Assembly: GCA_963920665.1 (NCBI GenBank)
Contig: OY987266.1
Span: forward strand, 22,866,248 to 22,930,247
DNA from: Straminergon stramineum
Taxonomy: Eukaryota > Streptophyta > Bryopsida > Hypnales > Calliergonaceae
Length of the DNA stretch: 64,000 bases
Direction: 5' to 3'
Of this stretch, positions 26,937 to 51,751 are shown in pieces. The translations under genes were made by a program, and so were the position numbers. How positions within the stretch are numbered: the first letter of the stretch is position 1; each line of letters begins with the position of its first letter. The notes under the pieces were generated by a model that worked only from the letters and a program-made list of their open reading frames with translations, searched no databases and was not told the origin of the DNA.

Positions 26937-28654
26937 TCCAAAGGGACGCTCAATGATCAAGCAGTCATGACAAGTGTGGATGGTGTTGTAGTTGAAAGCA
27001 ACAAAAGATCTAAACCAATGGAGGTAGGACAATAGTTGCATTTTGACATTTTGGATGACATCAACATCAAGGCAGAGACCAATTGGGAGACGAAGGACGT
27101 GGAATACTAGACCTTCAAACTGTGCAGAAAATATGTGAAAATGTATCACATTGGGAAGTTGTAGCCTTGAGATTGTGACCCTCTTGACACTTGTGAATAT
27201 TGTTTAAAACCGGCAAATTGTCTTAGTGATCATTTTGTCCATCGCTCAATGGAGGTGTAGCAAACCCTTTTTCCAAACAAGGCTATGAGCAAGGGTAGAA
27301 TTAACTACAACTTGGCAAGCATGGTTTATGTTGAATAGATTTTGGCTCGCAAGGTGGATTGGAGCATGTACCCTATAGTAGCGACAATTCCACTAGCAAT
27401 TGGTTAACATCAGAAAGACATTCCTAATACGTTCAATCCAAAGGCACAATTCCCTAGAGCATATGAAGCAAATGCCACGTCAAAGGATGTCACGGACTAG
27501 ATTCACATCCTTCTTCAATCCCAAGTGTGTAGTGTGGAAGTTATGCATGGAAAAAAAAGGTGGTAGAGCTAGGTGCTACATGTAATACTAAAGCAAGGAA
27601 CACTTCTTCTTCAGTAGGTGTGGAAGGAGAGGGGTTTAGGGCTCCATCAAAAGATTTGAATCCTATACCTAATGTGACAAAAAGAGTGTGGGTGGAAAAC
27701 ACTCCAAAAAAGCCACTTCGTCCCATAGAACATGGGTCAACATCCAAGCCACGAAAGCAAAATGAAGAGGTTTCTGTAGAAGAAATTGCTAAGACACACA
27801 TTTGTATTGATAGGGTTTTGAATAGTAGTGCCAAAGACATCATGTCCAATGTCCCTTTAGTTGTTCACTCGATGAGAAGACTGAGTCCAATTCAGAGCTT
27901 AGTAAATGAAGTGCCAACGTTACCAAACAGGAATGAAGAGTACCCTAGTGAACTGACAAGTGTAGGGATGGACTTGGAGATCGAGGCTATTGTCAACAAC
28001 AACGAAGAGATGCCGAATTTGGAAGACCATCCATTGCTAGCGTTGGTGGGTCCGAAGGATTTAGAGTCATTGTAGAAGATGCCTCCATTGGAAGAGTTGG
28101 AGAACTTGTTGCAATGTACCTTCCAATGGAACCAATTTGAAATTCAACGAGGTGCAACTAACAATGGAAATGAAGGTGGCATGAGTAATGAAGGTGACAC
28201 TACAAATGAAGGGCACAATTCTACTTCAGGCAAGGCAACAATGGGATTTGGTGAGATGTCCGAAACGACTTATTCTCTATTATGTACAGCTAGAGTTGTG
28301 GTTGTATTGACGCGTACCCTCGCAAAAATAATGGATACATTTTCCAAAATGACACCATCCATTTTACTTGGTGCTTTGGCTTTCAAGAAGTTTGTCGAGT
28401 TTGTGGACAAATTGCAAGACAAGAAAATGAAAGAGCTTCAACGTATTGTTCTTCTGGAACAAGAGAATCAAGAATTAACATCATATTCATTAAAATGGGA
28501 GTTTTCCACTGAAATAAGAGTTTTAAAAGTACTATTTATTATAAATGTGAAAAGAATCCGTGGTCCCTTGACACTAGAAAGCACAACAATCACATACAAA
28601 ACCTCTGAAGAAATACAAAATTTCAAAACATCATGCAATAAATGTGAATTGTAA
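26937..28654 (+). pseudogene. Decayed coding unit of unknown function
   Basis: A plus-strand reading of about 570 codons stays recognisably protein-like but is broken by roughly ten stops, mostly TAG, with a frame change near 27,570. The 5' part includes a possible zinc-binding cluster, CDPLDTCEYC followed by NCLSDHFVH. The middle is Pro/Glu/Asn-rich. The 3' part (28,079-28,654) has GDTTNEGHN and a helical, charged segment KLQDKKMKELQR that may form a coiled coil. The open segments 27,560-28,075 and 28,079-28,654 are in one frame separated by a single TAG. I do not recognise the family; it is probably a transposon-encoded protein because of its decay and setting. Confidence 0.45.
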
Positions 28655-28754
28655 TCCAATAAATGAAACATCATAAGCAAATAACTATGTGTTATATGTA
28701 TATTATCAACAAATCCTTGTACACACATGGCCTATTGTAAGTAACATTCCTAGC

Positions 28755-29118
28755 AACTAAGCTCTTCATCTCCATCAAACGTGTTAGGCACTGCAAGTAG
28801 ATTGCTTGAGAAGACAAGAGCATGGTGATTGAAGAATGAAGTGCATGATGAGCTTTGGCAGGATCTAGGCAAGGAATTTGTAGAAAAACAAATATCCAGA
28901 CGCCACTGAGCATTCTCATAAATTGCAATCCTCACAATCTTCTTTAGATTGCCATTTATGAAAATGCTTACAGCGACGCCTACATATTTCTAATTCTACA
29001 ACTTCCTTGCCTAGATCCAGTCAAAGTTCAACATCCGTTTCATTCTTCAATTACCATGCCTTCATCTCCCCAAGCAATCTACTTGCAAGATTAGTACAGC
29101 CAACGAAGATGAGGTCCC
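28755..29118. mobile_element. Foldback element, about 365 bp
   Basis: Two arms of about 180 bp are inverted copies of each other. The left has gcaagtagattgcttg and the right caagcaatctacttgc; aggatctaggcaaggaa is matched by ttccttgcctagatcc. The centre lies near 28,945 and there is almost no loop. No coding content. Confidence 0.75.
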
Positions 29119-29363
29119 TTAATTAGAATATCCAATTTGTAATAGATCAAGGACTGCATTCATTAGTGCAGATACCTTCAACATAGTCTCTAACATCATG
29201 TCCTTGAGTATGAGGATTGCAACAATGTACAAAGTTCTTTCCTAGATTTAGGGTATACGATCCCATGAAGGAAGTCATCCTCGTATCCTACATAGGGTTC
29301 TATGTAGTATCTATCATTGCTATCATTTATTTACAAAAACAAAATTTGTCATATAGACAACTG

Positions 29364-30985
29364 TCATGAGTGTGACTTGCTCTTGATTTCTTGAACTGCC
29401 TTCAAAATCTCTGGTCCTCGACTATACCCTGTTTCCATCTTCTTATACTTCCGCCAATAGTCTTGCCGCTGCGCCTCCAATGACTTCCGCTCCCATGCAT
29501 CCCGAATTGGAGTCGAGTAGCAACTACGAGATACTCCATCGTGCGACCGCTTCATTTGCCCCCCTTCAAACAGTGCGTGGTGTCGTTGAATCCAAGGTGC
29601 TATATTGGGGAGTGAATGGTGTGTTGTAGATGGAACCTCAGACTTCAACACTGCTGGAGCGACTTGACATCCCAAGTCCTCATAAAGCTTCCTCTGAGGG
29701 ACTTTGTCGGAGGGTGTCACTAAGGTAGGATGGCCCATAGGTCACAATGGAGATGGGGAGCATGAGAGTGGTTGTCGTTTCCTTCCATTGGGAGGGCTGT
29801 CAACCACACCATCCTCGACGGGCTTCGGTGAGAAGTCCATTGTGGAATTCGCAGTTGCTACCAATCCCAAGAAGTTTCCAATGCTAAGGATTAAGTACTT
29901 CCCGTAGTCCTAGATGGAGTCTGCGGACGCTTCGCAAGCAAGTCCACTTCCTAGGACATGGGTCGTTGGAGTGCCAAGTATCTTATAAGAACTGAAATTA
30001 AAACAAAGGTCTATCCAAATGCGTAAAAACAAAGAACACACCATGCCTGAGTTTGCTTGGACATGTATCAAAGGACTAACGTCAAACCAATGTAAATGCA
30101 AGAACACTCTTATATACGTGAAACCAAGAAACAATTTCATTCATAACTACGTTAACAAATATGTACAATTCAGGTCGTGCCGAGCTGAAACGAAAGTCTA
30201 ATGAAATCATGCCAATCTGAATTGATCTCTTTAGAAGTTAACCTAATTTACACTAGAAGACGCACGAACTACGTCCATGAGCTTGTTGTATTCTTTTCGA
30301 TTCCTTTCATCGCATAGCATTCGCCGCCCAATTCTTCCTGGACCGTTTTCTCTGAATGACTTCAACCCTTGATCGCGAGCGACATGTAGACGCTTAAACC
30401 AAGGAAGCAATACTTCAAGTAGAAAAGTGTCCCTCGGACCATTTCCCCTATAACTCCAAGAGTCTGGTAGAATGACATTATCAGACTTGTTCATTATATG
30501 TTTTATTGGGCTGTCGTCCACAATGACAGTATTGTCGGCACTAAAGCTTCCTCTTGAGCCATTGAATAACATATCTAGATTTTTCAAGAACAAGTCTTTA
30601 TCTGTCCCTAGCTCCTTCAAGGAAGACAACCTTCCGGCTCTATCTCTGGTCTTAATAGTTTGACAAGAGTCTTGCCCAAGAACAAGAAAGGGTCCCACTA
30701 AGCCTCAAAAAAGATATTCGCAAATCATCTCAGTGGTGGACTTTTTCATAGAACTCCACACTGATATCATTGCAAATTTCCCTAGCTCTGAGAGGAAATC
30801 GGAGCAAGTGGGTTTCACCCACACAGCCTTTGGTCCCACTAAAGCGGGTTCAATGGCTGAGTGCGATCCCGAGGAGTCTCTGAAGTGTTTATGCGACGAT
30901 CCCTTGGACTTCCAATCTTCATAGACACATAGAATGCCATTTAGGTCCAAGATTACATTGATCCACTTCTCTGCCACCCTAGACC
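29364..30985 (-). pseudogene. NIF/FCP1-type HAD phosphatase relic with C-terminal extension
   Basis: Minus-strand frames form a recognisable NLI-interacting-factor phosphatase domain (PF03031 type). They contain VILDLNGILC at motif I (plant members often have DLNG instead of DxDG), KPTCSDFLSELG, ISVWSSMKKST, GPFLVLGQDSCQT and NTVIVDDSPIKH at motif III with the Asp pair. A TGA at 30,705 interrupts one continuous frame. After a likely intron (about 30,240 to 29,991) a tail continues to 29,364 with a TAG at 29,910 and a TGA at about 29,739; it carries a basic GRKRQ stretch and Arg/Lys-rich helices. Such enzymes dephosphorylate Ser/Thr, classically the RNA polymerase II CTD. As a passenger of a transposon its target is unknown. 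It is the left-most minus-strand gene of the proposed 17-kb element, and a palindrome sits in its intron. Confidence 0.7.
30169..30189. repeat. Element palindrome, single copy (HAD intron)
   Basis: ttcaggtcg + tgc + cgagctgaa; eight of nine arm positions pair. Confidence 0.7.
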
Positions 30986-31215
30986 TGAATGGCCAATTGA
31001 CACCCTCCGAAGTTCCTCCACAAGCAGATGGAGGACCGGATTCTTGCTATCAAACGGGTGAATGCATATCTAGTTATAGTACTATACTGTCTCATCCCAG
31101 ACGTACATTGAAATCACATAGAAACTGGTACTCACCAAAGAGTACAAACGGTAGAGCACAGCGGCAATACACACAAGGACCAATTGAAGTGTGAACAGAC
31201 AGAACACCGAAGCTC

Positions 31216-31415
31216 ACCTGTTTTTTAGAGGATCCGTAAGATATTGTGAAGGCATCCTGTATCATTGCTTTCCATTCTTGAACAATATCCACGTTCTGCA
31301 CTTCAACTCTGGGGGCCGTGTTCCGATGGACTTCATCTTCAGTTACAGAGAGAGGATATGATAGAGGATGTGTTTGTACAGTAGGTGCACACGATGATGC
31401 GGAGACAATTGGCAA
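31216..31415 (-). pseudogene. Probable 5' exon of the HAD phosphatase relic
   Basis: Open minus-strand segment ending SYGSSKKQ at a good donor (AACAG|GTGAGC). It contains a Pro/Thr-rich, disordered-looking stretch (CAPTVQTHPLSYPLS). The joining phase to the 30,985 exon was not resolved, so assignment to that gene is by position only. Confidence 0.35.
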
Positions 31416-31613
31416 ACTCAGTGGCCTTGCGATTCACGATTTACGAAATGATACTCTATGTGAGTGCTATATATTACAGGCTCAAGAATTGATTTTGAAT
31501 ATATACAATTAAAATTTAAATCCCGACACTCCATAGTTCATTGGTAAACATGTCTCTCCACTGCAAAAATCCTAAACCTACACTATATCTACATGTAACA
31601 CCCTATGATACAA

Positions 31614-31634
31614 ATCAGCTCGAGTCGAGCTAAA
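31614..31634. repeat. Element palindrome, single copy with paired change
   Basis: cagctcg + agt + cgagcta. Relative to the usual caggtcg/cgacctg, both arms carry the matching change (ggt to gct, acc to agc), so symmetry is kept. Lies just after the stop at 31,653 of the ParB-like relic. Confidence 0.55.
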
Positions 31635-32726
31635 ACAAATGACATCGAGTGATTATTGAGCCGAACCTACTGGTGAACCTTCGTCGGGAACCGTATCCAG
31701 TTCGAGTACTACATTGGCTGGTTCCACGAGTAGGTTCAGCTCGGTGCCGGCATCCTCCGTATCTCTTGGTGTAACTTCGGCCACCTCACGCATAGCAACC
31801 TTTGAATTGGTGGCTTCTGTCTTCTCTGATGGGAGAGATGGACCTGCATCAGTGTCATTGGTAGGAGGAAGAGGGTTAGATTCTTGGGTGCCAGTGGGAA
31901 GCGGTGCAAGCAATGTTGTCGCCTCTTACGGAACAGACACTGCGCTGTCGTTTGATCCAGTGGCTTGATTTTGAATTAGGCGTTGCTGCGAAGTAGAGGC
32001 AGGCTGTAGGGATGCTAATGGCGTGGCTTCATTTTTGTTCAAATATTGTTGCCACATTTCCCAGTTTTGCTTCTGTTCCATAATCATGGTTTTCGTTAAG
32101 GAAGCAAACCTTCGATTCGTCTCCTCTTGGAGCCTTCTACTCTCCGCCCTATCTGTTGCTTGGTCCTGACGCATACTCTCTTGTTGCCTCATTAAAGAAG
32201 CTAGCGTCTCTACAACAGACTTCAAGGGGTCCACCTTCCTCTTCTTCGTCGGGCGCGTATTCGAGGAAGGAGTCAGTGGAGTAGCACACAGTCCTCCTAA
32301 AGCGTGCAATCCTGAAGAGGTAGAAGACCGTGGTGGATCCTGGAAGGCGGATCGACCTAGCGTCAAAATGTCATCGAGACCTGCTTCATCATCCAAGCCC
32401 TCCTCCTCATCGTCTTCTTCCTCTTCTTCATCAAAGATTGCGGCCTTCCTCTTCTCTGCCCGACTGCTCGAGGACCTTGTTGTGGACCTAGTCCTCATCC
32501 TTGTTGAAGATGGTGTCGATTGTGACCCCATCACTGCCAGAAATTGTGTAGCATCAACAGGGTACCGAGTGTCCAGGAAATCGTCTTTGTCGAGCTTCAA
32601 TGCTAGAGTAGCAATGTCGTTCCACAAGTCTGATTCAATGTCTGGAATTGCTGCGTACATATTTACAGAACTCATTTGCAATGTGATCACATCAATGTCT
32701 AGTTTAGAATTACGTGGTTATTGCAT

Positions 32727-32747
32727 TTCAGGTCGAACCGACCTGAA
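32727..32747. repeat. Element palindrome, perfect 9-bp arms
   Basis: ttcaggtcg + aac + its reverse complement, in the intron between the two last exons of the ParB-like relic, near the 3' end of that intron. Confidence 0.85.
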
Positions 32748-32829
32748 TAAGCATGAAGAATAATAAATGGTGACACTCTATGAAAGTTAATTGCTAGACA
32801 AACTAAACAAATTACGTCCAATAGTGCAG

Positions 32830-32850
32830 ATCAGGTCGAACCGATCTGAA
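32830..32850. repeat. Element palindrome beside a splice donor
   Basis: tcaggtcg + aac + cgatctga. Lies 17 nt inside the intron that starts with the donor GCATTG|GTAAGT at 32,869 (minus strand). Confidence 0.8.
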
Positions 32851-34351
32851 TTGCATTTAGTCACTTACCAATGCAACACACGTCAATTTGCCACCAGCAA
32901 AGACAAAGAAGACACTGGTCCTTGGATTGTAGAATTTCTTCACAACCCATAGGTAGAATTCCATTCTGAGCTCCATATTGTACATCCTAAAAGGGAGCTC
33001 ATTGTATCTTCATGGTTCTTTGTACACCAGTGTATCTGGAGCTATGAACTCCAAATATATTCTTGCTTGGTACACATTATCCGGGCTTTGAAGAAACATG
33101 AGCAGAACTTTTTTGAGCGCCTTAACGTTGTTCGCTGGCAAATCCATCAGACGTTCATTCTTTGCCGGATAATAATCCACACATTGCATGTTGAAAGTCT
33201 TAAGAGCTTCATTCCTCTCGACATATGCAAGAACTTGCGCCTGGTCCTTCTCATCGGCACAAATAAATAACCAGGACTTTACTTCCTCCAAGAGAGGCTG
33301 CTTCATTTTCTCCATGGAAGTCAAGACTTCGTAGAAGAATGGCTTCTCTACTGTGAAATTTTCTTTCTACAAAACGCTCGGGATAGTTCTGAAGTCTATG
33401 ACCCCCAACTTCACCTCTTTGGCCGTGGTACTGGTCCATGCCATGCGCGGCCACAACACATGCTTATTCTCCAAAATTCAGTAGGGTCGGAGATAAGCGA
33501 TGCCAGATGGAGGTACAAAAAGATTGCGTTTCTCTAGGAAGACTCTAAAAAACTCTGCTGCTAAAGGTGATATCTCTGCAGCCGTTTTGTTTCTTGTCTT
33601 CACTTGCTTTGCTTGTGCAAAGAATGCTTCACCGGGCCTCTCTAACAACACGTTCATAGTTGCACTTGTAATACTGCGAGTTCTCTTGAATTCCCTCCAG
33701 TTGGCAACTATAAGTTCGTTGTTGGCGTTGGACAGTCCAAGGTCTGGGTCAATTTGGTGAAGCTCTCTCTTCACCAGTTGCTTTCTCTTTCGTCGCTCCA
33801 CCCACTCCTTAGTACTATAATAGCTATCGAGGACCGACAATATCATTTTGATAGTCACCTTCGGATACTTGAGGGTGCGCTTAGCTCCCGACTGATTCAA
33901 AATGTGCTTCGCCAACTTCCCCAAGTCATCATAGTTGAGATTTCCCAATGGCTTGAAATAATCTCGACTCAGAGCACAGCTCTCCAGCTTCCAGTTCTCT
34001 TTCTCGTTGAACTTCATGAGTGTGTCAGGATCGAAGAGCTCTCCGTGCGTAGAGTTAGTGATGACTTCACTCCACAAATTATATACATGGGCAGGTGCAG
34101 TAATAATCTTCAGCTCATTTATAAGTCTCATTTTATCTTCCGCCCCCTTCTTCTTTGATAGCATGTGATTCTCGTTCACATCTATCATAGCAAAGCGTTG
34201 ATGCACCGCTTTCTCAAACTCCTGCATATCATTATTCAAACAACATGTCAAGCTTTGAATAAATGAAGACAATATTCAAAAAATCAATTGTTCAGATGTA
34301 ATATGCTTCCTAGGCAATTGCGCATTGAAGATGGCACCACTACTACTACAG

Positions 34352-34372
34352 TTCAGGTTGACCCGATCTGAA
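34352..34372. repeat. Element palindrome beside a splice donor
   Basis: ttcaggttg + acc + cgatctgaa. Lies 8 nt inside the intron that starts with donor TTTAGG|GTGAGT at 34,381 (minus strand). Confidence 0.8.
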
Positions 34373-35931
34373 TTACTCACCCTAAATTTTGTTGTCTGCT
34401 TCAATGATTCTCTATTCCGTCGAGCCATTTGGACTGTTCCAACAACAACTGCGTCCTTTGGATTCTTTGGGCTACCCATGTTCACCCATACGGTTCTTAC
34501 TCCAAGAATGTTAGTGGCCCAGGATGGTTGTATTGCTTGGAAGTGGTTGACACGATTGTAATAGGCGGAGATGGACTGCAACTTCTCAGCATCATTTGAC
34601 CACACAATAAAACAGTTCCACTTCTCGAACTCCTTTTGGGTGGTCTTGTCAATCCCACTATCATCCTCCATCATCATCTTGCTGGCAGCAACGCTATGTT
34701 GACCGTTGATGATGTAGAACAAGCCATGTTCAACATCCTCCCACTTTGTTGGCCTCTTCGTGGGACCAATTGGCATCACGCAGAGGGTTTGTTTGGTGCT
34801 CTTGTCTGGGATGTTGACAAGCCAATTCATCATGGACTTCACCAAATGGGTCTCTAAGACTCTAATGTTGAATTCAGCGGGTGCTTCAATCAACTGCTCG
34901 AGGGGAAGCACTTTCTTCTCATTCACCCCTAAAAAATAAGCGTCCATGCATGTCTCCCAAAACCTTTTATAGACCGCACTGATAGTTTTGTAGTCCGGTC
35001 TGCGGTCCGTCTACAGCGCTTGGGGCACCATTGCCATCAGATCTGCATAACTCAATTCTCCTAAACCCGACTACTCGGATGCCTTCTCTGCAGGTTTTTT
35101 TGCAGAGGTTGAGCCCAATGGACAGCTTTGTGTCACAGATGTTGGCGTTGGAGGTAGCTTCTTATTCCTCTTCCCTCGACCTTGAGATCCTTGCGTTTGT
35201 GTTCCCATGGATGGTTGACCTTCACCCTGACTACCAAATTCAACAGAGACTGTTCGAGGAGCCATAAACGATTGTTGCATTGCGTGCTTCTCCTTGAGCA
35301 CTTCGAATGAATTGAAAAGGTAGCGCAATTTAGTGCAGAGACGCTTTCCTGTCAATGGTGTACCGTCCGCATTAGTACAATAGTTCTCGTCTACCTTCTT
35401 CTCCAGGTTTTTGATCTCACTCCTATAAGGCGTAGGCTCCAAACTCTGAAGGAAAGGTACCATCGTAAAAGGGATCTTCTCCGAGTTAAAGGTAAGAGTG
35501 AAGTGGTATTGCTTGTCAGCTGCCAATTCACTCTTTGTTGTTACGTAGCATACTTTGATATGTGGGTAGACATCATTAATAACGTCCTTCACCTTCTCAT
35601 CGTAAGAAAGGGGTATAAAGATTTCTGATTTCTTGTATTTCATATTGAAGACCATGTTGTCCGTATGGGGCACCATGGTCAGACTCCAGGTTTTGACTTG
35701 GTCGGGATCACTAAACTCCTAGTAATCTCCTTCGATCATCATCTCGTCATTGTCATACTCGTCCTCGGGTCTTGTAGTTGTCAGACGAGTAAAATAGGCG
35801 TTCAGATTTTATATTTGGTCTTCCATTCTGCATGAACATAGGATCTGTGAGTTCATACAATACTTCAGAGAACTCGTTCAAATCAAAAATAGTGACCAGG
35901 ATCCCAATCCAATTCCTCCGGTTATTAGCAG

Positions 35932-35952
35932 TTCAGGTCGGCCCGACTTGAA
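35932..35952. repeat. Element palindrome upstream of the first recognisable exon of the ParB-like relic
   Basis: ttcaggtcg + gcc + cgacttgaa, about 95 nt upstream of the acceptor catgcag| at 35,837 (minus strand). Confidence 0.8.
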
Positions 35953-36132
35953 CGGTTATTCATTACGATGGATATTCTAGTGTCATTGTTTCTATTTATC
36001 TAAATAGATTCTGTTAAGATTAATTTGGCTAAAATATTCGATAATGGGGATTGATGTTTGTTATCATTTATGTTTTTAGTCAAGATACTGATAGTGATAA
36101 TTCCACTCTATTATTGATATCTAGCATTGTTG

Positions 36133-36758
36133 TTTAGGTCACCCCGACCTAAATTGCACATTAATGTTTTGTTAGACAAATGCTTAATTGTTTTTATTTG
36201 TTCATAGTTTATCGAGTTGATACTTATTTGATGAGTTTATGAATTAGGCACAGTGATGGGGTTTTAGCCATTAGTGATGTTCTTTAACATGATTCTCTGT
36301 GATTTTTTATTTTTTCAATTTCTTAACTGAACTGAATAGAAGTAATGAAAGTATTTGACTAACTGTAAATGAGCTGAATTTCGTTTACCTCTGTGCAATT
36401 CAGGTTGGGACGACTTGAGTTGCACTTTGGTTAATGGTGCTTTACTTGTGACATGGCTTGTCTTTCTTCGGATTGCTTTGCAATTCAAGTCGTCCCAACC
36501 TGAAATGTATGTCGGTAAATTGTGCTTTATGGTTGACACGGCCAGGCTTTTGTGGACTTCTCTGCAATTCAGGTCAGGACGACCTGAATTGCATGCAATT
36601 TAATGGTACTTTATGGGTGACACGGTGAGGCTTTCTTCGGACTTCTCTGCAATTCAGGTTGGGACAACTTGAATTGCACTTATGCTAATGGTCATTTAAA
36701 ATTTGCGGTTCCAGGATTTCTTTTAAGTTTTGTGTTGTTGAGGCCGCCCCAACCTGAA
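36133..36758. repeat. Left palindrome array, about 85-bp period
   Basis: Palindrome cores start at 36,133, 36,399, 36,484, 36,568, 36,653 and 36,738. The last five are spaced 85, 84, 85, 85 bp. The best copies are 29 nt: a 13-nt arm gcaattcaggtcg, three variable bases, and the reverse complement of the arm (36,395-36,423; 36,564-36,592; 36,649-36,677). Sequence between cores is partly repeated (taatggt..ctttatgggtgac and cttcggacttctct), so this is a tandem array whose best-kept part is the palindrome. It lies upstream of the ParB-like relic, which is transcribed leftwards. Confidence 0.9.
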
Positions 36759-36789
36759 CTGAATTATTGTGTTGAATAATACTTTTCGT

Positions 36790-37060
36790 TATCATGTTTT
36801 GTGATACTTATTTGATACCTGTTTGATATCCATTCGATACTCGGTGATACCCTGAGTAAACCCTATGTGACCAATAAGGTAACCCTAATGAACCCTTGCA
36901 CAGACCCTTGCACAGACCCTAAGCGAACCCTAAGAGAACCCTGATCAAACCCTGAGCTCCAAAACTGATTGAAAAAAAAATCAGAATCACAAGAAACCCT
37001 AAACCTGAAACTAGAATAAGCTAAACCCTAAACCATCAAACCACAACTGATGAGAAGCAA
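36790..37060. repeat. Degenerate GATAC and aaccct-rich tract
   Basis: Runs of gatact/gatacc words (36,804-36,855) followed by irregular accct/aaccct words (36,880-37,035). Resembles decayed microsatellite or telomere-type sequence; no gene. Confidence 0.45.
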
Positions 37061-37349
37061 ACATGCTAACCAAGGAACTAAAACGAAAGAATGTGATTCA
37101 AAACTAAATTCACACAAAAGCAAACCGTGAAACAAAAAACACAAGAACAAGTGCCAGTCGCTAAAACTGTAGACCACAATCTGGGGTCTTTTGCAGAACT
37201 AGAAAATTCAAACACAAGACAATTAACCACAATCCTAGAATGAAACCACTGCAAATGAATTAGAAGGTGAAGCACAACAAACACAAAAACTATGACAAAA
37301 CACAGAAGGGAAGTGTAAGTGACATTACCTTTCTAAGATAGAGCTCCAC

Positions 37350-37900
37350 AATTGTGAGAAAATGAGAAGCGCTCCACCTTAGTGAAGCTCATGCCTACAC
37401 CCTAAACCCTGAACATGTTCTCTGTGGAATAAGCACTATGGAAGACAACCAATACTCATAAAATTTCAGAGAAAAACATAGAAATTTGTACAGGGAAGAA
37501 CCCTAAGCCCTAAACCAAAGTCGCAGCAAAGAGAAGACGAAACTATTGAACAAACATGAGCAGCAAAACCGTAAGCACACGGTGAAAGAGAACCGTACCT
37601 GAAGCGAGCGTAAGCACAAAATGGAAAGACGACGGCGCACACAACGAACGAGAAGAGGAGGCGCAGTGCACACAGCGAACGGGATGATGAGGCACAGCAC
37701 ACACAACGAGAGAAGACGAGGCGAGCGCACACAGCAAGAGTACACGAGGCGCAGCGCACACAGCGAACCAAAACACGAGGCGCGACGAGGAGAGGAACGA
37801 GAAGACAAAGCGGAAAACAACTAAAACCCTAAACCTAAGTGAAGCGCACATGTGGTGAATCCCGACCCGCCAGCCGTGCAGACACATGGTGGGGCGTGAT
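37350..37900. repeat. GC-rich minisatellite-like tract between the divergent element genes
   Basis: Irregular repeats of gcgcacacagcgaac, gaggcgca and acgagaagac at 37,610-37,830. It is the GC-richest part of the element and sits between the minus- and plus-strand gene blocks, so it may be the promoter or first-exon region for the minus-strand genes. Overlapping open frames in all phases are low-complexity artefacts. Confidence 0.45.
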
Positions 37901-38108
37901 TGCTTGGCTGAGGCCAACGTGAACTCAATAAAAATGTTTATAACCTCTAAAAGTCCACATTCATCTCCAAAATTAATGATTTCAGAAAAACCTTTATAAA
38001 GTGATATTTGGAAGAGTATTTTGGAATTTCTATACAAATAAAAGTCGTAGACTGTGAGTTGTAGACTCCATCCATACGGTTAGATTCACCAATGCTATTA
38101 CCAATGCT

Positions 38109-38143
38109 ATGTATAACATTTATTACCAATAAATGTTATACAT
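38109..38143. repeat. Perfect 16-bp hairpin
   Basis: atgtataacatttatt + acc + the exact reverse complement. AT-rich; may be the end or remnant of a MITE. Confidence 0.75.
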
Positions 38144-38199
38144 TTTGAAAGTAAATTTCCTAAATTCCTTCTAAATGCAATTTCAAGAAAAATACGATC

Positions 38200-39320
38200 A
38201 CTTTCGGGGTAAATTTTGTTGGAATGGATTTGGAATGAGGTTATTTTCACATGGTGATTTATTGAAATTTGTGTGTTCTTAAGCTCTATGACAGTTTTGG
38301 CAATTTTAGTTTAGAACTACAATCAATGCTAATTTGGCTTGGTTAACCACTTAACATACTCTGACATTTATAATTTTAGAAAAAAATGTACTCTAGTAAA
38401 ACCAAATTCAACCCTTAGATAGGACAACAACTTCATAATGTATTTCTACAAAATTAGGATAACTTTCATCCAAGCAATAAGGAGGATGAAACTTGAGTTT
38501 TCATTTGTCTATTGTCCAGAAAATGGTCATTGGAACACTTATAGGTTAAACTTTTTAGTGCAACATCCTAGCTCCTCCTCTTTGTCTTAAGGAATTCTCA
38601 ATAATTTCAAAGATTTTTTGTCAATTCAAAAGCTAATATCTTGCAATTTTCATAATGGAAATTTCTGATGTTTTTTCCAAAAACTTCTAAAACTAATTGA
38701 CTACAAGATCCTACCATTATATGTGTTCAATAAGTGTTTCTTTCCCTAAAAGGGCACTTTTATAGAGTTTCGGGGGAAAGCATAGTTAAGGAACTTTAGA
38801 AGTTAAGAACCCACTGAGAACACTTACAATTCAGAAGTCACCATGAACCCTAGTCATGATTGATTATCATTTCCTAATCCACTTCATTTTTTTAATGCTA
38901 TAATAGAGTAAGACTTAAAGATACTTGTAAAGAATTAGTAAATTGTAAACATCAAATTAGTCAAGCATGCGCATCATTACCCATTTAACCCCTAAATGCT
39001 CCAATGTCCATTTTATGGATGATGAATACATGGAAATTCAAGTTTCATCATCCATATTGCTTGGATGAAAGTTACCCTAAACTGTGGCTATATTTTATTA
39101 AGTTGTTGTCCTATCTAAGGGTTCGATTTGTTATTTCTAGAGTACATATATTTTTCTAAAATTACAAACGTGCAAGGATGTCAAGTGGTTGACCAAGCCA
39201 AAATTGCATTGACTCTAGTTCAAAATCGGATTTGCCAAAATGAAGTCATAGATTTGGTAAACACAAAAATTTCAAAAGATTACCATGTGAATAGTACCTC
39301 ATTTCAAATCCACTCCAAGA
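38200..39320. mobile_element. Head-to-head pair of TTAA-type elements (inverted repeat)
   Basis: 38,200-38,549 and 38,985-39,320 are inverted copies: cccttagataggacaacaac on one side, ttgttgtcctatctaaggg on the other. One copy ends in aggttaa at 38,549 and the other begins ttaacccctaaatgctcc at 38,985. About 435 bp separate them. Confidence 0.65.
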
Positions 39321-40970
39321 TTTAATTAAAATTAAATTCTTAACATTTTTATATTATGAATCATTCTCTATTTTTTTCCTATATGTTGTAATGCCAAATG
39401 ATTTGAAATTTTTCAAGCATGTAGTAAACTTGCCTTGAAGAATGAATCCAAAGAAGCACCACCATTTTCGACATTTTTTCGTACAAATGCGAGCTTCTAA
39501 AGTGTAGTTGTTTGATCATTCATAGGGCCAAAAAAAAGATTTCTATGAATTTTAAAGCTTATATCTTGCAATCCATGTGGTGAAACTTTCTAAAATGTTT
39601 TCCAAATATTTTCAAACTAGCTTACTTCAAGATCCTACAGTTACCTATGTCCTAAAACGATCATTTTTTTCTAAGAATTGCACTTATGCTAATGGTGATT
39701 TATTATTAATTGTTGGCATTGTAAACTATACAAGCGGGATAGAAGTTTGAATTTGCAAGTACTTTTGCCATTCACTACAAACTAAATTGAGGAAGGTCAT
39801 CAAATTGGTAAGAATACATACTAGAAAGAATACACAAAGGAGCAATAATTATTTATAAAAGCTTGTATAAATTCATAAAACACTTTACTTCTACTATAAT
39901 TTCTAAGAATTGGAGTAAACATTTTTTTTAAAATGTAGGGGGCGTTGGTAATAAAACGGCTTGTAAAACAACTTTTGTAAAAATTACATCAAATGAAAAT
40001 GGCAAGAAAGGTAGGTGAAGACCAAAGTCAACTAAACAAATGAACAAATGTTTTAAAATGTTGGGTCCTATATGTCTTAGACAATATTCACCATATATAT
40101 GAAGAATTTCAACACTATTATGTGATCTTCAAAAACTCATCTGAGAAGAACCCTCCAATTATAACTGTAACATTCATTAATAGTATTCTATTTATAATAA
40201 AAAAAATCTTCAATGTTTACCAAAAAGATTAAAAAGTAAGGTATCTTGCTCCAAGATACATGTATTTTCTAAACTATTATAATTAGGGTTTTAATGTTAT
40301 TATTGCCTTCATTATAATTACATTTATGGATTCCCTCAAAATACTACTATAAGAACTTTCTACATGAAAACTAGATAATCCCCTTAACATTGGACTATAA
40401 TGGATTATAGGTAATTACTATCAGAACCATATAATATGAGAGGTTCCTACCAATTTTTCATCGGTAATGCATTGAAAAAAAAGGAAAAACACTAGTTTAG
40501 TATAGTCATGAACATTGAATACAAAAAATGCTATAAAATAACCAGGACTTCTATTTCTTTAATTTGCCATTGATTCATTTTAGGGTAAGTTCTATATTCT
40601 TTTCCTCATAAATTGTGTTCATAAAACAACATGAACTAGGTCACTTTAGAACTAAATGGCCACACAAATTCAACCCCAAAAAATTCCCAACATTTCTAAT
40701 TCAATATATCCTTCAAATCTTAATTATTGACAACTAGTTCGTTCATTTTATTACCAAACTTTTGGCAAGAATAATAGGATAACTAAACATAAAATGCCCC
40801 AAGACAAAACTCATTTACAACTTTTAAATATTTTGGGCATACAAAATACATATAAGCTTTTAAACAATTGAGAATCAAATTGTATACTAACATTGTCAAT
40901 CATATAAGAAACAAAATAGTTTTATGGTAACAAATCCTTGTTCGGTTTCATCATCTAATTTTCTCCAAAG
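39321..40970. other. AT-rich sequence, no gene recognised
   Basis: Part of 39,530-39,660 resembles 38,610-38,760, and a 22-nt stretch around 39,674 (gcacttatgctaatggt) repeats one beside the last left-array palindromes at about 36,673. Otherwise nothing supportable. Confidence 0.45.
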
Positions 40971-40974
40971 AAAA

Positions 40975-41024
40975 GCCCTAAACCCTAAACGCTAAACCCT
41001 AAACCCTAAACATACCCTAAACCC
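40975..41024. repeat. Interstitial telomere-type repeat (CCCTAAA)n
   Basis: About six CCCTAAA units with small interruptions. This heptamer is the standard land-plant telomere repeat. Confidence 0.8.
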
Positions 41025-41197
41025 AAAGCATGAACGCATCTATCTAATCATGAAAATGTGAGGTCGCGTTTTAGACATTTACATCATTTCTGTAAATGCT
41101 AAGAATATAAATTCATCTGCATGTGACTTATAATTAAAATATTCATTAAACTCTCACCTACCATACTCAACAATTGCCCTTGTTTTAGGTGATTTTT

Positions 41198-41529
41198 TCA
41201 TTTATCCCATAAACGATTCAACAACCATTTATTTGTCAACAATTGGCAAAGAATCCTTCTCTGTAGGACACAAGGGCAAGTAATCATCCCCGAAATTTGT
41301 GTATAAAGGAGAGATCTTTCACTATAGTTTGACCTGCAGCTAGTATTTTTGCTTTGTTTAGAGTAGGTGATCTTAGACGGTTCCAAATAGGAGGATTCCC
41401 ACAATCACTAGCCCATGCTTTAAGGACAAAAGTGCTAAAAAAAAGGAAAGCCCCATCATGTCCTTGTTCCCAAAGATAGCAGATAGGAAAAAATAGACAA
41501 AGGTTTTCCTCGTAATTTTCGTTCCACAT
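41198..41529 (-). pseudogene. LINE ORF2 fragment, possible
   Basis: Minus-strand frame with FFSTFVLKAWASDCGNPP, SPTLNKAKILAAGQTIV and KDLSFIHKFRG, then a frame change and a downstream continuation. The pattern resembles the region after the RT domain in plant LINEs. No flanking duplication was found. Tentative. Confidence 0.3.
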
Positions 41530-41596
41530 TACTCTGTCAGATGGGAGAAGAATCTTTGGGAAAAAATAGACTGCAGACTGCCCCCCCCTAAAACCA

Positions 41597-41894
41597 ATGT
41601 GTAAAGTGCTCCCAAGTGGAAGTGGAATCTTCCCTAGAAGGATGGAAATTCAAAGTCCTTCATTCCCGTTGGCACCTCTTTTCCCCTGCCAGGAAGACCC
41701 GTGGACGTCTAGACATGCTTTAGAGATTATACTCTCATTATCTATTGTCTTCCTGCTGCCTTCCTTCTCTCTCTCTTGTGCTTGGTTTCACGGTTGTGTC
41801 ACGTTGTCGTTGAAGATCTTCGCATCAATCGTGACGAAGGCGTCTTGTGCTTCTAGCTTTTGGTAGTATTCTTCGCATTCCTTATGAATTAGTT
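41597..41894 (+). other. Non-repetitive segment, possible leader of the transposase relic
   Basis: More GC than its surroundings with pyrimidine-rich runs (cctgctgccttccttctctc). Open frame 41,597-41,866 is not recognisable. Could be the 5' leader of the plus-strand gene at 43,575; no direct evidence. Confidence 0.25.
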
Positions 41895-42086
41895 ACAATT
41901 TGTGCCTTTTTGGTTTGCAGTTGCACTTCATATGAAGTAGTTCAAATTTCTGTCATTCTGGTTTGCTATTGCAGATCATGTAAAATAGCTCAAATTTCTG
42001 TCATTCTGGTTTGCTGTTGCAGATCATGTAAAATAGCTCAAATTTCTGTGATTGTTGTTTGCAGCTATACTTCATGCAATATTGTT
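41895..42086 (+). repeat. 48-bp tandem repeat, four copies
   Basis: Copies start at 41,895, 41,943, 41,991 and 42,039 and share caaatttctgtcattctggt. The unit is a multiple of three, so the frame 41,847-42,149 reads a 16-residue repeat (QISVILVC, CRSCKIA), but nothing else supports coding. Each unit contains tttgc(a/t) followed by a pyrimidine-rich run. Confidence 0.8.
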
Positions 42087-42414
42087 GCTTGTTTTTCATT
42101 CCTCATTGGAGCTGCACTGTTGAGAGTGCACCCATGCTTGGATATATGACATTGGGCTCCGTATTTGAAATAAGGTCCACGCATTTTTGTAAAGCGTCCT
42201 TCATTATACGCTTATGTGTATTTCCATGTCTTTTGATGGAGTTGTCTTGTTGAAGGCAATTGCATTCCTGAATTTGTGGAAGAAGTGATGCGTGTGAAAA
42301 GGGCTCCTAATTTGTCGCCGCAAAACCCGGACCCCTTCAATTAGATGGGAAATCAATAGAATTCCTTTAGATCCAGTCAATTCATGATATTCATGGGTTA
42401 TATAAGGCGTGCAA

Positions 42415-43482
42415 TTCAAGTTAGTACGACCTCAATCATTGTTCGGATGAATTTGTAGACATTTATGTTGACTGCAAGCGTACTCAACATAAATTGATAA
42501 ATAATGGAATATGAATTTTCAGGTAGCAATTCAGATCGTACCGACCTAAATCTACATTTACAATAAATCCTGAGCATATATATCAATTTAGTAAATAACT
42601 AAATGGAAATGTAGGTTCGTAAATATTTGAAATGCAATTGCAATTTCAGGTCGGACCGACCTAAATCAACCCGTCATGAATTTACTATATTAAAGAGAAA
42701 CTAACTATTGACCTTTATCAACTTAATGTTGAATTGAAAAGCTTTGACTGCATTTCAGGTCGTATTGATCTAAATTTAGATGTCGTAAATCTATTGACAA
42801 ATTCATAATGCATATCTTATTGAACTAAATATATAAAAGTTTGAAGCTGAAGTCTTCGATTGCAATTCAAGTCGTATCGACCTGAATTGAAATATTATAA
42901 ATCTGTAAGATATATCACAATATCCATTAAGCATACCTACATCGAGAGTTTCTTGATTCTGAAGTATTGGACTGTAAGTCAAGTCATATCAACTTGAATC
43001 ATTATGTACAAAAACTATAGAAGTGAACATACTGCACATCTGATGGACTCAAATGAGGAATGTTTGACTAGAACTAATGTCCAACTAAAGTTAATCGATA
43101 TGGACTCAATCTGTGACCTGAAACGTTAATTCAGGTCGTATTGACCTGAATAGACAGATTCTAAAGCTGTGATTGTAGAACGCCCTTGAAGTCTCATTTA
43201 TTAGAAGTCAAAATATCTTGGTTCTTTAATCATTGTTTATAATTCAAGTCTTGTCGATCTAAATGTTCACTGATTTCCATCTTTCGATTTTCTTTGCAAT
43301 TCGGATTGGGCCAATGAGAATCGACATCTTCCGTAGTGTTTTGGTTTTAATGTCAATTCAAATTGTATCGATGCAAGTCAAGAGTTTAGTTTTGATATAT
43401 TCAATTTTGTTTCTGATAATCTGAATTGATATTTTCAAGATAATGTATCCAATGCGTGCAATTCAGGTCTTGCTGATTTGAA
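42415..43482. repeat. Right palindrome array, about 112-bp period
   Basis: Palindrome cores start at 42,415, 42,530, 42,645, 42,754, 42,866, 42,978, 43,130, 43,243, 43,300, 43,357 and 43,462. Spacings are 115, 115, 109, 112, 112, 152, 113, 57, 57 and 105 bp. The two 57-bp steps add up to one period. Best copies are at 42,866 (ttcaagtcg tat cgacctgaa) and 43,130; copies at 43,300 and 43,357 are weak. Spacer similarity is low, so the palindromes stand out as the conserved part. The array ends about 90 bp before the transposase-type coding region. Confidence 0.85.
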
Positions 43483-43574
43483 TAGGAAGTTTTAAGTATA
43501 ATTGGATGGCAGTTGATGCTTAGTTCTTGTCTACAAGTGAACTCAATGTTGTATTATCTTGATCTATAGGAATT

Positions 43575-46418
43575 ATGGGCTCCCATGTCATTCCTCTTAA
43601 TGCAATGGACTCATCAGATGACGAGTTCCAAGCTCTTGAGGGGATGAATGTGGGCATTCCAGAGTGCGAAGGACTTCCACGTCGCCAATGGAATACAAAG
43701 TGCGTCACTCTCTATAACAATGAAGGCATACTTGTTGGAGAAGGTACTTGCCATAGTGTGAACTCGGATTTGGTTCTTGGTGCCAATGGTCCTCTAGGAG
43801 ATACTCATGTTGCAGTGCACATTTCAAAGATACATTCCGAAGTTGACATTCCTTTGGAGCAGGTGTACTCTTTGATAGCGTGGCCTACTCAGCTTGTTCA
43901 TTGCCACGGGGCAAGCGTGCACGACCATGAGGCTAGGGATAATTTCAATCGAATCCAAGCGAGTTTGTTAAATCCGCCCTCCTTGTCATCTGCACGTCCA
44001 TATACGAGCGTCATCCGAAATCCACCTCGAGAGACTTCTCTGAAATCGAAGGACCTCCTTACACAAGAGTCTATCAATGTAGTGTCCAACAAAGTTTGTT
44101 GCAGCCAAAATTGTGTTGAGCCATTTCCAAGGGAGAAGATTCGAGCCTTTCGTGAATGCATGTACCACAATTCAACGTTCAAACATAGAGCCTTCATGAA
44201 GACGGAGGTGCACAGACAAGTTCATTGGAACTCCCGAGGGAGAAGGATGGTCACGGTTGAGGGGGTTAATGTGTGTATGAAAGCATGGATGCATATTTCC
44301 GAGGTCCTAGAGGCCACATTCTATCGCTACCAGACATATTCAAATAATGGTCGGAAAGCAATGGCACATGGTAATTCAGGGTTGGTGAAGCCAAGGAAAC
44401 ACACTCAACAAGCTACCGCAACGTTGAAGTGCATTCTAGACAAGGAGACAGATCACATGCCACATCGTACTCGAACTCTCAAGTCTGGGGATAAGGTCAT
44501 GTCCATGATTCTTCCGCCTACCTTTCAGTGGAAGGATCAAATTGAAAAAATCAATGAAGCCAATGCCGCCTTCAGATTGAAGGAGGTCTCAACTTCAAAC
44601 TTGAGCAAGATTAGATCATCCAAGTTCCCAAAGTACGATGTGAAAAAGCCAGGAGATAATTTTGCTCAGTGCTCTATTTGTGACAAATTGCAGGAACTAA
44701 GGAAGGGAGCATTTCCTGGGTCTCACAGTGCTTTGAAGTGGTCGCGAAAGTTGGACAAGCATCTTGCCATTGCTTGTGCTCACAGGGAGTTGTACTATGC
44801 AAATCATTACCGATCGCATAATTCCCCACATGAGTGCCTTACGATTATGCATGACAAGATGGATCATGCTAAAACCGCTTCTCCAGTCTTCTCCCACAAG
44901 AGTAAAGAACTTGATGGCCTAGTGAAGTTGCCTGTGTCCGTGACTGGCACGATTGCGCATGGTCATGCTGATGTGCGCTATGCGCATTACGGTTTGGATC
45001 TATTTCCCCACGATTCAAACTACACCATTGGCTCCATGGCCAAACTATTGCAAGATTTGGAAGAGCCACCAAAGTCTTCTTCTCGGCAATTGTTTGTGAG
45101 GTCGGGGTCGACAAATTTGTTTGGTGCAGTGCTTAAGGGAGATGAGATGTGTGAAGCATCCCTTCCTCCTCCACCAATTACCTTAGTTCCAGCGACGCCG
45201 TTGCCACCCATTCTAAATGTGTAGATGGACAATGCCACCGGGGACAACAAGAACAGATATGTTTTCTGTTTTTGGTCTCTACTTGTTGCAAACAAGATCT
45301 TCTGTGAAGTGTATGTGAACTTCATGATTGTGGGTCATACACATGATGACATTGATGCACTATTTGGAAGATGGAGCATGTTGTTGAAGAAGGAAAACTT
45401 CCCTATAGTTCTTGCACTCATGAAGTCATTCATGGATGTGGAATCCATTCCTACTATCCCTCATCTTATAGAAGAGGTGCCTAATTTCAAGGGATTCATT
45501 GCAGGTTCATTTGTGGACAGAGATGAGATACTCATTGAACATATGAAGCCACAACAAGTGAAGTTCTACTTAGATTCAATGGGGTGTCCAGTCATGAAGT
45601 ACAAACTGTTGTGCACCGATGAGAACTGGTTAGGGCATGATGGCAGAGGCATCAAATTGTGGAAAGAAGATGCAGAAGGGCGAAGTTCGTGGCCTCGTGG
45701 AGTGCCATTGCTAGTTCCACAACGTCCTATGAGAGGCGTGGAAGACATTTTGAAAGGGATATCTGGATTTGTCAAATACTGGAAGAAGTTGTGCAATGCA
45801 AATGTCATTGGGGAATACCGAAGGCGCTATGAGCATTTGGTCCACTATTGGCGGGGTGTGAAGGTAACATTATTGGAACCAATAGCTACTTCTAGTGTTC
45901 TAAGGGATGGTTTTTGGCCGGCAACTCGTGTTCAAGCGGCTCGAGAGGATGAAGTAGGAAAAGATGGTGAGGATCATGAAGAGTTTGGAGAGGATGACAC
46001 CTACGTTGGGCCTCTGCGGGGTTGCCCACAACCATCCTTTAGGGTGGGTCGAGATCTCTTTGAAGGCTACTTTGTCGCAATTCGACCCGCTGATGGTGAC
46101 ACTCAACCAGTTTGGATTGCAAGGGCGTTGTCTGATCCGAATTGTAATCCTAAGAAACCAAATTGTGTTCTCATTCAATACTTTCGCCCAACATCGAGGA
46201 GTCAAGATGTTTAGGACTTCTATACTAGATGGGATAGTGAAAGAGGTTTACGTTGGAAGGTTGATATAGCCGATCCACCCATTTGGGAAGAAACAAATGC
46301 TCTCATGACAGCGTGGAAGTCTCAAATTCGAAAGGACACACGCCAATGTTTGCTTAAGATCCCGGCTGCTCAAATTGAAATCATCAACCAGAGTTTGGCT
46401 TCATATACTTTGTCTTAA
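43575..46418 (+). pseudogene. RNase H-like transposase-type protein (HTHDDID family), two in-frame stops
   Basis: One frame runs from ATG at 43,575 to TAA at 46,416 (about 947 codons), broken only by TAG at 45,222 and 46,212. Both TAGs sit where Gln (CAG) is plausible. The N-terminal third is of unknown fold and acidic at the start (SSDDEFQALEG). A finger-like segment FAQCSICDKLQELRKG, then KHLAIACAHRELYY and ECLTIMHDKMDHAK, follow; the last may hold the first catalytic Asp. After the stop come MDNATGDNKNRYVF and VNFMIVGHTHDDIDALFGRW, a pattern I recall from plant and protist proteins labelled DUF7869 and thought to be transposase-like with an RNase H fold. A plausible acceptor (ctatag|g) lies six nt before the ATG, so the palindrome array may be in a leader intron. 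Likely mobilised the proposed element. Confidence 0.65.
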
Positions 46419-46981
46419 GTGTAGCGTTCGATGAGTTGGATCAAGTCCAATATGTTGTTAGCTACATATGGTAGAGTATTATTTGTTTTCTTATATGTCT
46501 ACAATATGCTTTCACATTACTGTGAAGGATATCATTTTGATTTCTTATAAATGAGGGGTAGGAGATTTAGATTCATGAATGTTTAACTATAGCTTACTAC
46601 GAGTAGTATTCAAAGCTTTGGTTTCTTTGTGGGGAGTAATATGTTTGGATGTTACACTTGCAACATTCAAATTGCAAGTGCAATATGTATACCGTATTAA
46701 TATATTTCATATGGCATTTTATATATACTTGTTTGCAAAAGACGTGCAATTGTTGACCATATACAATACGATCTTCTTTTCAAAACATTATATTCATTTC
46801 ATGACTCTCATTTTAATAGAAATTGCTACTTTAATTTAATTAATTAAGTAATCATCAAGCTAAATTACAACTCACTCAATTCACTAATTGTACCTTTGAA
46901 GGCCAAATACTAATATGAGAGGGCGACACTCTCCCATTTTAATGAATATGATGTTAATTGAGGGAGGTGCATTATTCCAAG
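46419..46981. other. AT-rich spacer between two plus-strand relics
   Basis: No gene recognised; short open frame 46,579-46,839 looks like chance. The right end of the proposed element could lie here. Confidence 0.35.
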
Positions 46982-48826: not shown

Positions 48827-49290
48827 GAAGGAAATGTTGAATTTTATAGCATAGACTTATATAGTTATATTTGTGGCATTGAAAATATAATTTTGCATTG
48901 TGTGGTTTAGAAGTTTTCATGACTAGGACATCATCCACTGTATACGTGGAGACATACTTGTAATGCATATACATGTATGCAAGAAAAATACGTTTTCATT
49001 TCGTTTCGTTTTATATATATGTTTGCTTCATTATTATAATTTCACTTGACTATATTGAATTCAAGGATACATGCTCTATCCAATTTCTAGTTTATTGTTC
49101 ATTCAAAATTCAAATGAGTATTTTATTGTACCACTTTGTACTTGTTTTGTAATCCTTTGATAAATGTTAATCCAATAATCCTTACACCTTGGCCACCCTA
49201 AACTACAAAACTGATTTTGAAGAAGACAACCAGTCTGCGCCGTCTGCCCTGTCCACCCATCCGCTCGTTTGCCTATGAGCACCAAATTAC
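48827..49290. other. AT-rich spacer ending in a GC patch
   Basis: No gene. 49,200-49,270 has the GC-rich gtccacccatccgctcg type of sequence seen in the other patches. Confidence 0.4.
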
Positions 49291-51740
49291 CCACCCTTGG
49301 TAATTTGCGAATACAACTAGGTTCTAGGTTTCGGCTAAGTGACTCCTACTTTTGGGTGTCTAAGCGTGGTCCACTGTGGCTTCTAAGCAATGAATCTTTT
49401 TACTAAGTGCCTACATGCCCCCAAATTTGCAAGATTCGCTTAATCTACTTTCAATGTTTTGGCCGACCAAATGGATGGCTTGCTGTATGATCTAGATGGA
49501 ACCTATGCCAGGGAAAAACTAACCTAAGAAACCTCTATTTCATCTTATGCCATTTCTAAAAACATAAAACTTGACCCTATCCGACTTTCCTAGCCAAAGT
49601 TATGGATGGATGAAGTTTGATTGCTACTAGGTTCCTCAAACTTCATCCATTGATTGGACCTAGCTCCCCAATTCAGAAAGATCCGAAATTTTTAGGAATG
49701 GTTCACAAGAATTGCTCCTACCTAAATCTATAGTTGGGCCTTGATCAGAGACTCCTAAGAAATTTTCATCTAAGCCTTATATAAACTTTATCTACTGATC
49801 TTTCCTAATCTGTAATTCGGAATTAAATTTTTTTCTTTGGCCCTAGACCCTAATTGGTAGCCTCCCCTGAATCTACTTAATTCTTTGTCAAATACAGAGT
49901 TTAGCTATTCTTCATCCAATTTGACCCTAATCTCCATCCGGCAATAATTTTTTCATTTTTGGCCCGATTTGGGCATGCCTTAGGGTTTTGGAAAGCCACG
50001 GTCTCCTTTTTTAAGTTTATGTCCTTGGAAATGACTTGACCTACAATCCTAAAGGTTTGACCTAGGGATAGGCCTTAATTCAAGTTACTAATCTCTAATT
50101 AGGGACCTAAAAAAAGTTTGGAAAGGTTTAATTCATACCTCAAAACTTGAGTCATTGATTGCACCCACCGGAAGCTCTCCCTCCTTTGCCATGAACTCCT
50201 AGGCCGTGAGACAACTAACCATTGTTCTAATCATAAAATAATTTATTTGTTGGCCTCACTCTATTTCTTTTCTCCTCTTCTCTTTTCTTTCCTCCCACAC
50301 TCTAAGGTGACCCAATTACCCTTGCTCCTACCTACTAAGCTAATCTTAAGGACGTGTCATACCATCCTCCAAGGTTGAACTACTTCTTATGTCCTATACT
50401 TACGTCTCACACTTAATCTCATGGTGATCACCTAATTCTAATCTAAGGGCTTAAGTAAGCCTCGAGGATTTCACCTCCTATCTTATCTACTTCCACTCCT
50501 AAACTTCAAATTGTCCTTCCTCTTGTCACTCCCTCATTCTTTTAGCCACTTGGTTGTTGCTTTGGTGATGGTCACAAGAGACAAGGAATTGGATTCCCCG
50601 CCTTAATAGTTTGTTTAGTGTGGTTGGACGCGTCTTGTTGGTGTCCTTTCTTCCTCCTCCCAATTGCTGGACAACCCTTCTCTAATTATTGTAACCCCAC
50701 CCCCTTCCTCCTCCACTCTAGACAGCTCAATGTTGGCCCCAGCTGAATGCCCAGCCTTGCTCCCTACCCTAGACAGCTCTGATGGCTAGCCCTAGCCCTT
50801 CTTAGGTATTGAAGTGGGGGTTTAGGTGTTGGCTAATGCAAATATTGGCTAATGCTTGGTAATGGATGCTAGACCTCATTTTTTACTGATTTTTTGCTAA
50901 CTTCTAAGGGAGGTTTGGGAAACCCACGTCTATAGTTGGAAGGGGGTAAACTAAATTCGTGGGGTGAGGACCTCACTTGGTTTCTCCTAATTACCCTCCA
51001 TTCTCAACTTGACTTCTAATTCCTATTTTGGAGGCCTAAACCTTGGTTTGTTCCCAACACATTTTGGGAATTAAACCTTGTGGGGAGAGGGACCATGTAG
51101 TCTCACAGTTCTCTCATGAGGTGGTTTTAACACATTGCTAAGACTTCGTACCCACAAGGGTTCAAAGCTTCGTTGTCATTCCCCTTTCTAACATACCACC
51201 AAGACTTTTTATCCCAAGGGGGTTCAAAGCTTCACCGTGAGGACAGAACCCACTATCCTCACACCCTTGTGTCTCTCACTAGGGAATACCACGTCAATGT
51301 TAGGAACAAAAGGAAGGTACCTTCAACACTCAAAGGACTAATGACGCGGGGTTAGTATCACAAATGACTTGAATTAAAGTCCCCCCAAAGTGACATCACT
51401 AGTCATATGAGGGGTTGCTCTAGGGTTAGTACAATGATAAGACAAAGAGAGTGACAATAAAGGTCCTCCAAAAGCAACACACACAAAGTTTAGTAACACA
51501 ATAAGGTAAAAAGCCTCCAAGCTCAAGCTTGGAAGAATTAGTACTACACACATTCAAAATGCAAGAGACTCACAAAGACCTCACAAGCTTGGGAAAACAA
51601 CAACAATGGCCAAAAGTGCCCCAAAAACACTGTTGCAAGGTTTGTGACTAAAATGCCACAATTCCAACATAAATTGGACCCAACAAACCCAATGGATCCA
51701 ATTACAGAAAGAGGGGTGGTGAGAGAAGAGAAGGGGTTCT

Positions 51741-51751
51741 TTTTTATACTC
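51741..51751 (-). promoter_or_regulatory. TATA-like box in left arm
   Basis: gagtataaaaa on the minus strand, pointing away from the centre of the inverted repeat. Confidence 0.4.

Follow-up and report, generated by a model that had tools for sequence, protein, structure and literature searches.

The element described here is a large DNA transposon of mosses, studied in Straminergon stramineum, whose non-coding DNA carries palindromes that differ from one of its families to the next. The window analysed is a stretch of 64,000 nucleotides (assembly GCA_963920665.1, contig OY987266.1, positions 22,866,248 to 22,930,247 of the forward strand), and its segment 28477..46955 (plus strand, 18,479 bp) is one copy of this element. 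The gene layout comprises two divergent genes, a DUF7869 transposase gene on the plus strand and, on the minus strand, an accessory gene that joins a ParB-like region, a DNA methyltransferase-like domain, an acidic linker and a NIF/FCP1-like domain. We infer, with a probability of roughly 0.6, that the element is a giant transposon of Sola1-like type and that its accessory protein recognizes the palindromes of the element itself, thereby controlling its expression or silencing in a manner that resembles the unrelated VANC of Arabidopsis.

The element was delimited by alignment with four other copies, which keep the same order over approximately 18.4 kb with 92.6–95% identity in the main pieces; the genome searched comprises 326 Mb in 59 contigs. 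In the five-copy comparison, the continuous match breaks off at the identical two ends, within 3 bases, and the flanks have only scattered other repeats in common. The original prediction had placed the genes and palindromes in one mobile unit, which the shared order and ends bear out, at 29364..46418, limits that are now replaced by 28477 and 46955. It had also looked to an alignment of copies for the termini and target duplication, and these were defined in this way: terminal inverted repeats (TIRs) of 25 bp lie at 28477..28501 (plus strand, AACATCATATTCATTAAAATGGGAG) and 46931..46955 (minus strand), flanked by the target-site duplication (TSD) AATT at 28473..28476 and 46956..46959. A 21-base TIR pattern gave 138 + 143 matches genome-wide at up to two mismatches, and the control gave none. 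The Sola superfamily is defined by a 4-bp TSD together with a DDD transposase of RNase H-like fold. Three of the first five copies compared have perfect 4-bp duplications. We then chose 20 further opposed TIR pairs from the 100 TIR matches listed, and 17 of them are flanked by perfect 4-bp repeats, whose sequence varies. In two pairs of loci (L033/L034 and L037/L038), the TIR is identical within each pair and the subterminal sequence differs, which suggests that these ends are common to further families of elements.

The transposase gene (43575..46418, plus strand), recognized from Pfam matches and open reading frames (ORFs), has in-frame stops at 45222–45224 and 46212–46214 in the window copy. 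Both pieces of 43575–46211 match DUF7869 (PF25273; E = 5.4e-6 and 8.8e-25), the sole Pfam family of this protein, whose core is probably RNase H-like. The genes had been described as relics, which is true of the window copy with its stops and frame shifts but not of another copy, in which the transposase frame is open over 947 aa (P0001). Over nearly its full length the transposase is 73% identical to a Physcomitrium protein and 66% to a Ceratodon protein; a profile search returned 290 proteins, with no newly named organism among the 120 matches listed. Genome-wide, the matches listed include 79 transposase places in three related families (A, B and C). A single contig, C11, holds 38 of these 79 places against 4.2 expected by length; it may be a sex chromosome or one that does not recombine.

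The size of the segment and its prokaryote-like domains would also fit an endogenous viral genome, a reading that we regard as extremely improbable given the TIRs with 4-bp duplications and the transposase-like fold. Moreover, pattern-based scans of viral contigs with the transposase and accessory alignments gave no relatives. Exact matches to the B/C-type word (see below) were likewise absent from the viral contigs, and TTCAGSTCGNNNCGASCTGAA had three single self-palindromic matches there (L094–L096).

A scan for TTYAGSTCGNNNCGASCTRAA at up to three mismatches found 18 sites in the window, all within 28477–46955 and none in the other 45.5 kb, as the original prediction had stated. At up to two mismatches, the window copy has 14 sites and the four other copies 19, 19, 17 and 18, compared with 0.00 in 30 mononucleotide shuffles of each. 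Seven of the 18 sites lie upstream of the accessory gene (35932..36758; starts at 35932, 36133, 36399, 36484, 36568, 36653 and 36738, with three mismatches at 36399, 36653 and 36738) and six upstream of the transposase gene (42530..43263; 42530, 42645, 42754, 42866, 43130 and 43243, the last with three mismatches). The remaining five are in or beside the accessory gene: one inside the ParB-like part (34352..34372), in an inferred intron whose borders, GTGAGTAA and TATGCAG, were read by eye in another copy; two between the methyltransferase-like and linker exons (32727 and 32830, spanning 32727..32850); one at 31614..31634; and one 3' of the gene (30169..30189). Seventeen sites fall outside the coding matches to moss proteins, and the remaining one falls within a match span, in an inferred intron. 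The palindromes are putative binding sites, an interpretation made stronger by the family specificity of their words.

The family A word is TTCAGGTCG-N3-CGACCTGAA. For families B and C, the 1.6 kb preceding the transposase were compared in 20 divergent copies. All 20 contain palindromes (3 to 9 each; 0.000 in shuffles), and the words are TTTAGCTCG-N3-CGAGCTAAA for family B (49 sites in seven copies with 77–80% transposase identity) and TTTAGGTCG-N3-CGACCTAAA for family C (61 sites in 13 copies with 68–73% identity). Position 6 of the word is C in 49/49 B sites and G in 61/61 C sites, and position 16 is G in 49/49 B sites and C in 60/61 C sites. Where the array preceding the accessory gene was read as well, in a single copy each of families B and C, its word agreed with the one preceding the transposase gene. 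Many B and C words are centred on GANTC, the target of CcrM; family A lacks it, and for this reason the argument makes no use of it.

Certain family-A sites depart from this scheme. The site equivalent to 31614 bears the family-B word in all five family-A copies compared, the site equivalent to 30169 combines one A arm with a B-type right arm in all five, and position 16 varies in family A (C in 59, T in 18 and G in 10 of 87 sites). These exceptions may be ancestral, recombinant or decayed.

Exact genome-wide searches, with one pattern per family, located 58 distinct places for A (65 rows), 42 for B (84 rows) and 67 for C, and the reversed-pattern controls gave none. Of these places, 49 A, 21 B and 33 C have a listed transposase match no more than 15 kb away, and all 103 are in the matching identity class, a test that is not fully independent because the classes were drawn after the 20 copies had been seen; the other 64 of 167 places have no listed transposase within that distance. 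For family A, 49 of 58 places fall in these surroundings, which make up approximately 0.7% of the genome, and the palindromes therefore track the element genome-wide.

The agreement between word and transposase class bears on who reads the palindromes. CACTA elements carry subterminal repeats that are bound by the transposase, and the palindromes could similarly be the binding sites of this element's own transposase, the word following the protein. Their specificity to the element and the 103/103 agreement speak for this, as a transposase partner would give them too. However, the main blocks are not subterminal, lying approximately 7.5–8.3 kb from the left end and 3.7–4.4 kb from the right end. 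Furthermore, two family-B copies (C2 and C3) have an exact family-A TIR where the far end would be expected, at a distance of approximately 18.6–18.8 kb from the transposase, this being the one end considered in each copy; the ends, which the transposase reads, thus seem to stay unchanged when the word changes. Binding by the transposase is the main rival explanation, and we judge it rather unlikely. The pattern calls for a dimeric reader that the element itself encodes, that changes from family to family and that acts in non-coding DNA close to the two genes; the accessory protein is the obvious candidate for this role.

Two further explanations dispense with a reader encoded by the element. 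Since each gene is preceded by one of the main blocks, the palindromes could be sites of a host transcription factor that drives the two genes; this is quite improbable, as three words for three families in one nucleus would hardly suit one factor, and further sites lie in inferred introns. Alternatively, the palindromes might be functionless, one word per family having been spread by tandem duplication and gene conversion. Part of the accessory-upstream block is indeed an 85-bp tandem array, and conversion is able to homogenize repeats, but the sites occupy several separate non-coding blocks, both arms differ together between families, and similar sites occur at a 54%-identical relative; a neutral origin accordingly appears improbable, if slightly less so than the host factor. 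The relative is encoded on a 4.3-kb contig (CADCWO010000071.1; L093) that is filed under a cyanobacterial assembly and is probably contaminating moss DNA. Its transposase is 54% identical, with three palindromes upstream (up to one mismatch) and, downstream, two at up to two mismatches and a third at three, all of a B-like or mixed word.

The accessory gene (30243..35826, minus strand) is interrupted by frame shifts and stops in the window copy. The original prediction counted three genes, but two of these, the HAD phosphatase and the ParB-like relic, prove to be parts of this one gene, as exons: the moss proteins P0113–P0115 and P0119 map in order onto the minus strand from 35826 to 30255, and the homologs in Physcomitrium and Ceratodon are single proteins of approximately 1,380–1,590 aa. 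In single-sequence Pfam searches, nothing except NIF exceeded the cut-off; NCBIfam gave below-cut-off matches only and PHROGs weak matches only, and PDB sequence searches yielded either nothing or, in two cases, a single match without significance (E = 0.59 and 0.35). Two weak Pfam matches below the cut-off, MHCassoc_trimer (9 of 21 alignment members) and Tugs (6 of 21), were set aside.

The ParB-like region (34276..34950, minus strand) was recognized by eye from a box, (F)YIINGQHSVAAS, near 34681–34719. Its earlier assignment is retained here as a likeness: the stretch has homologs in mosses but no Pfam match to ParB. In a profile comparison with five ParB-like proteins, the best alignment was the box itself, with a score equal to the shuffled mean, and an hhalign comparison of the accessory alignment with E. 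coli YbdM was not significant. The methyltransferase-like domain lies at approximately 32863..33520 (minus strand), as placed by the fold match of a homolog. Residues ~640–858 of that homolog, P0112, match the fold of CcrM and other N6-adenine methyltransferases in a model of low overall confidence, which supports a DNA N6A/N4C methyltransferase-like fold and agrees with the earlier guess. Comparison with E. coli YhdJ by hhalign was not significant, the alignment falling on the expected motif I. The DPPY-type catalytic motif is absent; read by eye, its place is taken by GVIDFRTILG, GVVDFCILPG, GVIDFRYTPG, GIIDLRELSG and GIIDFRFLPT.

An acidic, Ser/Pro-rich, coiled linker follows (31653..32717, minus strand; one or more exons, from ORFs and moss-protein mapping), and then the NIF/FCP1-like domain (30255..31046, minus strand). 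Pfam NIF (PF03031) matches 30243–30698 (minus strand) with E = 3.7e-7, and the NIF part is 59.9% identical to P0113 across 31040–30255. The same family is above the cut-off for the window piece, P0113 and P0119, and is matched by 15 of 21 accessory-alignment members at a lax limit. The catalytic motif of NIF/FCP1 phosphatases is DxDxT. In the window copy, P0113 and P0119 it is replaced by LDLNGIL, with loss of the second catalytic Asp. Between families, pieces of the accessory protein are identical at 453/900 (B–A), 464/913 (C–A) and 438/941 (B–C) positions, and the transposase pieces of the same family-B and family-C copies are 80% (B–A) and 70% (C–A) identical. Downstream of the accessory gene, 29364–29741 (minus strand) and its equivalents form a further ORF, of 258 aa in two of the five copies compared, which may be a third gene or an extra exon. 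The five Ceratodon relatives of the accessory protein listed (P0120–P0124) all bear U or V locus tags, a hint that moss sex chromosomes may be a place of accumulation.

Under the reading preferred here, the accessory protein would recognize, as a dimer, the palindromes that its own element carries in non-coding DNA and, once bound, would act on the chromatin or transcription of its own family; in the simplest form, it would keep both promoters from being silenced. Word and accessory protein would have changed together, each family thus serving its own copies. The fuller proposal is that mosses independently evolved a family-addressed control or anti-silencing system, in which a ParB-like and methyltransferase-like reader devoid of the catalytic motif is joined to a phosphatase-like domain and recognizes a private word, word and protein co-changing as families split. 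We put this forward tentatively, at somewhat less than even odds.

Other features of the window include, within the element, an inverted-repeat stretch at 38219–39318, perhaps a nested insert, that is also present in the four other copies, and five telomere-type CCCTAAA repeats at 40976–41011. Outside it, a long interrupted inverted repeat (49286–58028) has pieces that are 74–89% complementary and recur beside the C9 copy. Direct repeats of 95–99% identity at 8975–10607 and 61451–62099, approximately 52 kb apart, are perhaps two copies of one retroelement part. A 388-aa ORF at 19275–20441, with a DUF4100 match just above the cut-off, is perhaps also a retroelement.

Among known systems, bacterial ParB–parS comprises several palindromic sites near the ParB gene, and the moss element similarly has multiple palindromic sites adjoining the gene of a ParB-like protein; it differs in having no known segregation role and in its ParB box score, which only equals the shuffled mean. 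With respect to transposons, the element is most likely Sola1-like, judging from its target duplication and from the appearance of "Physcomitrella Sola1" in a review table (PMC9033089), with the 73%-identical Physcomitrium homolog as circumstantial evidence. The proposal that it is of a wholly undescribed kind is not supported, since the closest known element, the 21.5-kb Sola1-1_Ec32 of Ectocarpus, also has a divergent gene, encoding a 1,104-aa protein with ParB and methyltransferase domains (PMC12477816). Both are giant DNA transposons with ParB-like and DNA methyltransferase domains encoded opposite the transposase strand. The predicted product of the Ectocarpus methyltransferase is 4mC or 6mA, and the authors of that study suggest that proteins of this kind may bind the element that encodes them and modify it epigenetically, citing Iyer 2011 and Petroll 2025 for similar proteins of green and red algae (PMC12477816). 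By description, the moss protein differs in lacking DPPY and adding the linker and NIF; moreover, the relevant passages of PMC12477816 name no binding sites, whereas the moss element has candidate sites.

Among open-licence papers, we found no report of the NIF fusion or of family-specific sites. VANDAL elements have a Mutator-like transposase and a 9-bp TSD; the moss element has a 4-bp TSD, and DUF7869 is the only Pfam family of its transposase. The closest known behaviour is that of the Arabidopsis anti-silencing protein VANC, which in the portions of PMC5735166 consulted is described as causing loss of DNA methylation and as binding motifs that lie in the introns and intergenic sequence of the VANDAL family encoding it. 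The likeness lies in an element-encoded protein acting on its own family through introns, intergenic and terminal non-coding parts, with targets that vary between relatives; the VANDAL motif is short (YAGTATTAY) in contrast to the long moss palindromes, and those portions mention no ParB, methyltransferase or NIF parts (PMC5735166). In the moss, candidate sites can be pointed to in many copies, and a single genome offers three family versions of them, which makes the self-binding proposal directly testable and provides a natural swap series for the DNA-reading part. If the proposal is true, the problem solved by VANC in Arabidopsis would have been solved a second time in mosses, by unrelated means.

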